The position numbers and the translations under genes were made by a program. The notes under the pieces were generated by a model. It was not told the origin of the DNA, ran no database searches, and saw only the letters and a program-made list of their open reading frames with translations. Source: Streptomyces cyaneus (lineage in GTDB: Bacteria > Actinomycetota > Actinomycetes > Streptomycetales > Streptomycetaceae). From it: a stretch of 64,000 bases of DNA. The stretch lies in contig NZ_RQJW01000019.1 in assembly GCF_004028635.1 (NCBI RefSeq), forward strand, positions 1 through 64,000, read 5' to 3'. Shown piece after piece: positions 3,248 through 31,869 of the stretch; position 1 is the first letter of the stretch, and every line of letters starts with the position of its first letter.

Positions 3248-3302
3248 GTGGCTTGTCGCGCCCACGCGGCGGAGCCGCACATCGATACAGCCCCGCGCCC
3301 CT
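3248..3302 (+). repeat. dispersed intergenic repeat, copy A
   Basis: One of four copies in the window of a 54-56 bp element containing the hairpin GCGGCGGAGCCGC and the stretch ATCGATACAGCCCC. It lies between the convergent HNH and SPFH genes. Other copies: 29051-29104, 30525-30578, 42773-42828. Confidence 0.9.
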
Positions 3303-28996: not shown

Positions 28997-29050
28997 CGCC
29001 CCGCGGGTTGCGCCACAGGGGTGCGGTGATCTGCGGGCTGCGGCTTCGTC

Positions 29051-29104
29051 GTGGCTGGCCGCACCCCGCGGCGGAGCCGCATATCGATACAGCCCCGCAC
29101 CCCT
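29051..29104 (+). repeat. dispersed intergenic repeat, copy B
   Basis: Same element as at 3248-3302, including GCGGCGGAGCCGC and ATATCGATACAGCCCC, between the convergent tyrS and GlsB-family genes. Confidence 0.9.
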
Positions 29105-30470: not shown

Positions 30471-30524
30471 GGGCACGCCATCGGTTCGGGGTGGCGTGGG
30501 TCGTGGGGCGTGTGCGGCGCCATC

Positions 30525-30578
30525 GTGGCTGGTCGCGCCCCGCGGCGGAGCCGCATATCGATACAGCCCCGCGCCCCT
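30525..30578 (+). repeat. dispersed intergenic repeat, copy C
   Basis: Third copy of the element (CGTGGCTGGTCGCGCCC ... ATCGATACAGCCCCGCG), between the 71-residue gene and moaA. It abuts a small hairpin (CGCCCC/GGGGCG) and the MITE-like element. Confidence 0.9.
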
Positions 30579-30593: not shown

Positions 30594-30782
30594 CTAGGCC
30601 CTGTCGTTTGGATCATCCCGGCGTCGCGGGCCCTGGCACGCGCATCTGCCGCGTTGTCGTCACTCGCCGACGCTCCGCGTCGACTCCCTCCTCCGCCTTG
30701 CAGCTGCACGCACCAGACCCCGCTCGGGCCGGCTGAAGGCACTGCACCTCACAGCCGGCCTGATCCAAACGACAGGGCCTAG
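30594..30782. mobile_element. MITE-like element with 22-bp perfect terminal inverted repeats
   Basis: Left end CTAGGCCCTGTCGTTTGG... (30594-30615) is an exact inverted match of the right end (30761-30782). The total is 189 bp, or 183 bp if TA is counted as target duplication; CTAG occurs on both sides. The interior has no transposase and no long frame. The right end supplies the TAG stop codon of moaA. Probably a non-autonomous insertion mobilised in trans by an IS transposase elsewhere in the genome (inference). Confidence 0.75.
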
Positions 30783-31768
30783 CCGCCGATGGCAGACATC
30801 GGGCGATCCGGCTGCACGAAGGACGGGTCGTCCAGGCCCGCGCCCGCCTTCTTGCCCCACATCGCCAGCCGCCAGATCCGGGCGATCTCCTCGTCCGGGG
30901 CGCCGGAGCGCAGGGCCGCGCGCAGGTCCGTCTCCTCCTGGGCGAACAGGCAGGTGCGGACCTGGCCGTCGGCCGTCAGGCGGGTGCGGTCGCAGGCCGA
31001 GCAGAACGGGCGGGTGACGGAGGCGATCACGCCGACCACGTGCGGGCCGCCGTCGACCAGCCAGCGCTCCGCCGGGGCCGAGCCGCGCTTCTCCGCGCCC
31101 TCCTCGGTCAGCTCGAAGCGGGTCCGCAGGGAGGTCAGGATGTCTCCTGCCGTGATCATGCCGTCGCGCTTCCAGCCGTGCTGGGCGTCCAGCGGCATCT
31201 GCTCGATGAAGCGCAGTTCGTAGTCGTGCTCCACCGCCCAGGCCAGCAGGTCCGGGGCCTCGTCGTCGTTCAGGCCCGGCATCAGGACCGAGTTGACCTT
31301 GACCGGGGTCAGGCCGGCGTCGCGGGCGGCGTACAGGCCCTCGATGACGTCCTTGTGGCGGTCACGGCGGGTGAGCGTCTTGAAGACGTCCGGGCGCAGG
31401 GTGTCCAGGGAGACGTTGACCCGGTCCAGGCCCGCCGCCTTCAGGGCGGCCGCGGTGCGCTTGAGGCCGATGCCGTTCGTCGTCAGGGACATCTGGGGGC
31501 GGGGCTCCAGGGCCGCGACCCGCTCGACTATGCCGACCAGGCCGGGGCGCAGCAGGGGCTCACCGCCGGTGAAGCGGACCTCCTCGATACCGAGGGAGGT
31601 GACCGCGATCTCGATCAGGCGGACGATCTCGTCGTCCGTGAGCAGGTCGGGCTTGGCGAGCCACTGCAGGCCCTCCTCGGGCATGCAGTACGTACAGCGC
31701 AGGTTGCAGCGGTCCGTCAGCGAGACCCTCAGGTCGGTGGCCACTCGGCCGTAGGTGTCGATGAGCAC
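30779..31768 (-). CDS. moaA: GTP 3',8-cyclase MoaA (molybdenum cofactor biosynthesis)
   Basis: Radical SAM enzyme starting molybdopterin synthesis from GTP. 329 residues. The N-terminal cluster motif C-x3-C-x2-C is at Cys21, Cys25 and Cys28 (DRCNLRCTYCMP). The C-terminal second cluster lies in PFCSACDRTRL and RTCLF, and the essential terminal Gly-Gly is preserved (MSAIGG stop). The GTG at 31768 is favoured by GAGGGAGGG 5 bases upstream over the in-frame start at 31801. The stop codon TAG lies inside the terminal repeat of the MITE-like element, so the insertion landed exactly at the gene end. Confidence 0.95.
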   Translation of the reverse strand: MLIDTYGRVATDLRVSLTDRCNLRCTYCMPEEGLQWLAKPDLLTDDEIVRLIEIAVTSLGIEEVRFTGGEPLLRPGLVGIVERVAALEPRPQMSLTTNGIGLKRTAAALKAAGLDRVNVSLDTLRPDVFKTLTRRDRHKDVIEGLYAARDAGLTPVKVNSVLMPGLNDDEAPDLLAWAVEHDYELRFIEQMPLDAQHGWKRDGMITAGDILTSLRTRFELTEEGAEKRGSAPAERWLVDGGPHVVGVIASVTRPFCSACDRTRLTADGQVRTCLFAQEETDLRAALRSGAPDEEIARIWRLAMWGKKAGAGLDDPSFVQPDRPMSAIGG

Positions 31769-31869
31769 GTGGGCCCCCTCCCTCGTCACGACCAGATTCA
31801 ACTTCTGTCACCTGCGAGCCTACGTGACCGCACTGACAGCGACACCGGCCCGATCCCACGACGTACGAC

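Follow-up and report, generated by a model that had tools for sequence, protein, structure and literature searches.

A mobile element at the moaA stop codon of Streptomyces cyaneus that probably carries a structured module

Location and structure of the element

The stretch of Streptomyces cyaneus DNA that was analysed (contig NZ_RQJW01000019.1, positions 1 to 64,000; 64,000 nucleotides, referred to as the window) contained an intact moaA gene on the minus strand, the stop codon of which lay in the end of a 189-bp element. The features of the locus are as follows:

30779..31801, minus strand: moaA (GTP 3',8-cyclase), an intact open reading frame with a MoaA family match and the C-terminal end Ile-Gly-Gly-stop
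30779..30781, minus strand: moaA stop codon TAG, placed by the same open reading frame (30779-31801, minus) and family match
30594..30782, no strand: the whole MITE, from CTAG to CTAG, 189 bp, defined by its inverted repeat, further genome copies and empty sites in relatives
30594..30622, plus strand: left terminal inverted repeat, CTAGGCCCTGTCGTTTGGATCATCCCGGC, with the end architecture of IS5-family ISs
30754..30782, minus strand: right terminal inverted repeat
30594..30597, no strand: CTAG, one presumed copy of the target duplication (CTAG or TA), from the sequence and the single CTAG at the G001 empty site
30779..30782, no strand: CTAG, the other presumed copy, which includes the moaA stop, from the sequence and the G001 empty site
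30624..30725, minus strand: structured core of 102 nt as predicted by a match to model R1 and by covariation, with a covarying stem, a near-invariant internal loop GCAAGGCGGAGGAGG / GACGACAACGC and an apical hairpin

The moaA product was full length (340 aa) with the Gly-Gly end and matched TIGR02666 with 369 bits (cut-off 284). Its stop codon is read on the minus strand at positions 30779-30781, within the right-hand CTAG of the element, and the right end of the element therefore forms the TAG of moaA directly after Gly-Gly, as a preliminary description made from the letters alone had stated. The inverted terminal repeats of that description were also real: the arms measured 29 nt each and were 93% complementary, with a perfect match of the outer 22 bases. 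The 19-mer end GGCCCTGTCGTTTGGATCA had two inverted occurrences in the window, both at the element, against 0.02 expected (up to 3 mismatches allowed). The folding z-score of the element was -10.2 for the minus strand and -8.2 for the plus strand. The open-reading-frame list showed no transposase frame within the 189 bp.

Copies of the element in the genome and the genus

The source genome contained two further full copies, at C1:990330-990518 (99% identical) and C4:366516-366705 (92% identical), and a shortened, internally deleted copy of 91 bp at C7:455613. Across the genus, 200 of 296 genomes had a match, and relatives of the element were carried on 35 Streptomyces plasmids; the phage records searched gave no match. 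The element is thus a MITE, being short, with inverted terminal repeats, without a transposase gene, dispersed in near-identical copies and with a target duplication and an empty site, and the earlier term “MITE-like insertion” was borne out by the copies in the genome and across the genus. In the literature, which was covered in part, there was no paper with the terminal-repeat sequences and none that described a MITE of streptomycetes; 32 papers contained fragments of the core, apparently as chance primer matches to judge by their titles and abstracts. One relative (L403, NZ_CP045549.1 78273-78446) lay on a Streptomyces plasmid, in a polyketide cluster, with fabG on one side and an aromatase/cyclase gene on the other.

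Empty sites at moaA

The 3' ends of moaA in relatives showed that the stop codon was there before the element. In G001, moaA ended with GGC-TAG directly before CTGCAACGCCTCAAAGGGGCGCGGGG (the same junction also reads GGC-TAG-CTGCAACGCC), with a single CTAG and no element, and the order in the window was GGC-TAG, the element and then CTAG-GGGCAACGCCCCTTCAGGGGCGCGGGG. In G317 and G220, moaA ended with GGT-TAG and matching downstream sequence, also with no element. Other relatives had TGA, TAA or TAG stops. Since three relatives without the element have TAG at the same place, the element did not originate the moaA stop, and the earlier claim that it supplies this codon was not upheld. The element instead entered an existing CTAG and duplicated it. 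The single CTAG at the G001 site supports the proposed duplication of CTAG (or TA) at both ends; the two targets read alike because the palindrome masks which was duplicated.

Insertion sites relative to stop codons

An end of the MITE formed the stop codon of a gene in 60 of 92 distinct insertions of the genus, compared with 29 of 95 CTAG sites in a background sample of 464 kb, 14 of 46 CTAG sites flanking these MITE loci and 12 of 33 insertions of ISs with the same end architecture; here a stop was called where the element end closed a frame that was open for 80 codons or more and had the streptomycete GC3 pattern, a rule applied to samples in place of a gene finder. The difference between MITE insertions and background was stable across thresholds (Fisher p 2.4e-6). 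The 68 gene ends at MITEs fell in 68 unrelated families, which argues that the stop-codon insertions were independent events. In a further set, in which most cores were divergent, 22 of 40 copies were at stops, and copies from other genera showed no excess (10 of 39), so that the bias is a property of the genus and not of the whole superfamily.

CTAG was about twelve-fold rarer than composition predicts, estimated from 95 sites in 464 kb against about 1 per 0.4 kb expected, and copies away from stops were likewise at CTAG. The preliminary description had offered, as one option, that the element targets stop-codon CTAG sites; this was supported as a description of the observed copy locations. 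The simplest reading of the excess is survivor selection, and the lack of enrichment of the ISs at stops fits their being younger. The bias amounts to a simple rule, open to measurement, by which a transposon may stay harmless in a gene-dense, CTAG-poor genome.

Terminal repeats and related insertion sequences

A truncated IS in the source genome (C5:328943) had the ends CTAGGCGGTTTCGTTTGGATCATC...CTAG, and the end architecture of the MITE recurred in an intact IS of 893 bp and in about 25 others. The intact relatives (879-923 bp) had the layout TAGG-nnnTnTC-nnnnnn-GATCA with CTAG flanks, and the same layout and flanks were found in a 1311-bp element with four copies and perfect 24-bp repeats. 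This IS5-like element (L244, L252, L262, L269; G247) also had an extra short open frame besides its frameshifted transposase. The IS transposase, searched as two reading frames joined by hand, belonged to the IS5 family (NF033580, 283 bits, cut-off 110), and we take the two-frame layout of the ISs to be of the IS427 type.

The ISs and the MITE are alike in their CTAG ends, in the form of the terminal repeats and in the target CTAG/TA; they differ in that the MITE has no transposase and the ISs have no core. An autonomous IS with exactly the ends of the MITE was absent from its own draft genome within 2 mismatches. The check for a full IS with the same ends, proposed in the preliminary description, thus gave agreement in the architecture of the ends and, within this draft assembly, none in their exact sequence. 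The middle of the terminal repeat differed between genomes (GTTTGG, CCGGCG, TTCCGG and others), and the two arms changed together, with 7.71 of the middle 8 bases identical compared with 5.64 after shuffling (87 copies).

Fold and covariation of the core

On the moaA-sense strand (30725 to 30624) the predicted structure of the core is a long stem with an internal loop and a hairpin at the apex; over the whole element, this strand gave the more stable fold of the two in 87 of 87 copies. Alignment A2, built with MAFFT independently of structure from 39 sequences below 90% identity, had 97.9% of cells paired and compensatory double changes at 16 of 35 pairs; none of 500 shuffles reached its covariation, and slid structures scored far lower. 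Double changes were found at 21 of 35 pairs in the divergent copies of the order (A3) and at 29 of 35 pairs in 40 copies from other genera (A4), both of which were fitted to model R1, which favours its structure. A4 contained 351 double-change cells compared with 103 after shuffling, and its mismatch cells on the folded strand were 161 G-U against 5 A-C, cell counts of this kind being inflated by sequences of shared ancestry. A double-stranded cruciform would not separate G-U from A-C, and it is thus one strand that selection sees. The loop GCAAGGCGGAGGAGG / GACGACAACGC was near-invariant across the class, and the stems, the hairpin length and the terminal repeats varied. Taken with the covariation, this suggests that one strand of the core is selected as a fold, either as RNA or as ssDNA.

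A coding core was ruled out, as variable columns occurred in all three phases and tracked base pairing. Searches of Rfam 15 at permissive thresholds with both strands of the window and 20 divergent copies matched no family. The CGCAAGG of the core, which we took to resemble the twister-sister ribozyme, was dropped as a ribozyme candidate on the same searches.

Distribution of the core and its independence from the ends

A covariance model (R1) built from the 39 A2 sequences matched the core in the window at an E-value of 6e-24 on a scan of the source genome, E-values of this model being rough, and found 4 copies in that genome. One of these (C7:243864-243965) lay between quite different perfect terminal repeats (CCAGGGCCTGCCGCCGAATTCCCCTC), and its sequence indicates that the ends were probably exchanged around the core. 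In the order, R1 had matches in 108 of 148 genomes; in the class, 70 of 297 genomes matched, spread over 21 of the 114 genera sampled and often with at least 10 copies.

Derivation of the core from an IS was ruled out: among 100 IS loci the lone match (L254, in G004) lay outside the IS. It is a partial core at 509-574, about 40 bp from an IS5-family element, where an IS perhaps landed beside or inside a MITE. Since MITEs with unrelated ends share the core and the ISs are without it, the core is neither left over from one particular IS nor tied to one transposase. Found across the class inside MITEs with a wide range of terminal repeats, it has the character of a mobile structured module. The preliminary description had set a mobile element against a conserved structured RNA; this either/or was misleading, as the element is mobile and also has a conserved, covarying single-strand fold. 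The loop motifs of the core were also present in four contigs of viral collections (L395-L398).

Proposed explanation of the locus

The locus is very probably explained by a non-autonomous MITE, presumably mobilised by an IS5-type transposase onto a pre-existing moaA TAG and carrying a core with a selected fold of the mobile structured module type. This reading builds on the observed copies, terminal repeats, TAG-bearing empty sites, CTAG ends, stop excess and IS5-family elements of the same architecture. An IS5-family transposase would act in trans on the ends, CTAG-GNNNTGTC-NNNNNN-GATCA, inserting the MITE at CTAG and duplicating CTAG (or TA). CTAG is rare in this high-GC genus, and about a third of its sites are stop codons. 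Insertion at a stop would do no harm, since TAG is restored at either end of the element and the protein stays unchanged, and copies would therefore persist at gene ends. At moaA, the MITE landed on the existing TAG and the gene was spared.

The core may then act as cargo, a one-strand fold that works independently of any single transposase. The module is most likely RNA and possibly ssDNA. A one-strand fold with a near-invariant loop, common to elements with unrelated ends and present in many copies per genome, likely does something. Our best guess is that a putative core RNA is bound by a conserved protein of the host or undergoes processing (by an RNase), aiding the spread or the tolerance of the element. 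The wider proposal, that the core is a functional structured RNA of a new, class-wide actinomycete family, which binds protein, is processed or even cleaves itself and which has become mobile through the ends of many insertion sequences, is plausible but somewhat short of probable.

Alternative explanations

The stop excess could be explained by a dedicated factor that directs integration to stop codons beyond CTAG alone, as the stop fraction was twice that of CTAG sites generally. Such a factor is improbable: ISs with the same end architecture and CTAG were not enriched, copies outside stops used CTAG too, and survivor bias accounts for the excess without a new factor. The excess might also reflect adoption by the host, with the hairpin acting as a transcription terminator or 3' processing signal that ends or protects mRNAs and is kept at gene ends for this reason. 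The strong hairpin on both strands and the presence of 65% of copies at gene stops, with ISs not enriched there, speak for this. It is nevertheless rather unlikely, since the pattern of an intrinsic terminator (a hairpin followed by a T run and oriented with the gene) was not found in the element: there was no T run 3' of the stem, and the orientation relative to genes was 26:26 despite conservation of the fold on a single strand. As genes enter the element from both sides equally, the folded strand would not be selected as the 3' end of a host mRNA. The moaA copy was absent from the other relatives examined and is therefore not a conserved moaA terminator.

A purely selfish MITE without a functional core, in which pairing would follow from palindrome descent and arm-to-arm gene conversion, agrees with the nearly identical terminal-repeat arms within a copy and with a core that has neither an ORF pattern nor a known family. 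We consider this very improbable, because gene conversion would erase the conserved wobbles rather than favour G-U over A-C, and because the unpaired internal loop was near-invariant across the class. The main alternative to an RNA is that the folded strand matters as ssDNA, as an intermediate of replication, conjugation or transposition. G-T wobble is tolerated in ssDNA too, and the absence of orientation bias would be expected if transcription of host genes were irrelevant. The terminal repeats and the target duplication, however, speak for a DDE transposase that works on double-stranded ends, and a link to a single-strand-acting enzyme was not noticed in an incidental, non-systematic look; ssDNA as the selected form thus seems unlikely, and the MITE with a module that acts most likely as RNA is preferred.

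Comparison with known MITEs and structured RNAs

Bacterial MITEs such as Correia (Neisseria), ERIC/RU-1 (enterobacteria) and BOX/RUP/SPRITE (pneumococcus) are short, non-coding and located near genes, with terminal repeats and stably folded transcripts (PMC10969869). Streptomyces is not mentioned in that review. Compared through the literature, these elements and the present MITE are alike as short, non-coding, folded repeats, but here it is the core and not the ends that is conserved, with one-strand covariation and unrelated ends across the class. MITEs are usually defined by their ends, with the middle as filler; in this element it is the middle that has been conserved. Many structured RNAs of Rfam (riboswitches, ribozymes and protein-binding RNAs) resemble the core in having an invariant internal loop flanked by covarying stems; the core differs from them in being mobile, multicopy and outside the Rfam 15 families.

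A second repeat next to the element

Another intergenic repeat of 66 nt, with the core GCGGCGGAGCCGCATATCGATACAGCCCCGCGCCCC, was present at 29039-29104 and 30513-30578 of the window, with 91% identity between the two. It directly adjoins the MITE and also occurs near positions 3266, 42791 and 47453. Similar sequence was found 3' of moaA in several relatives.
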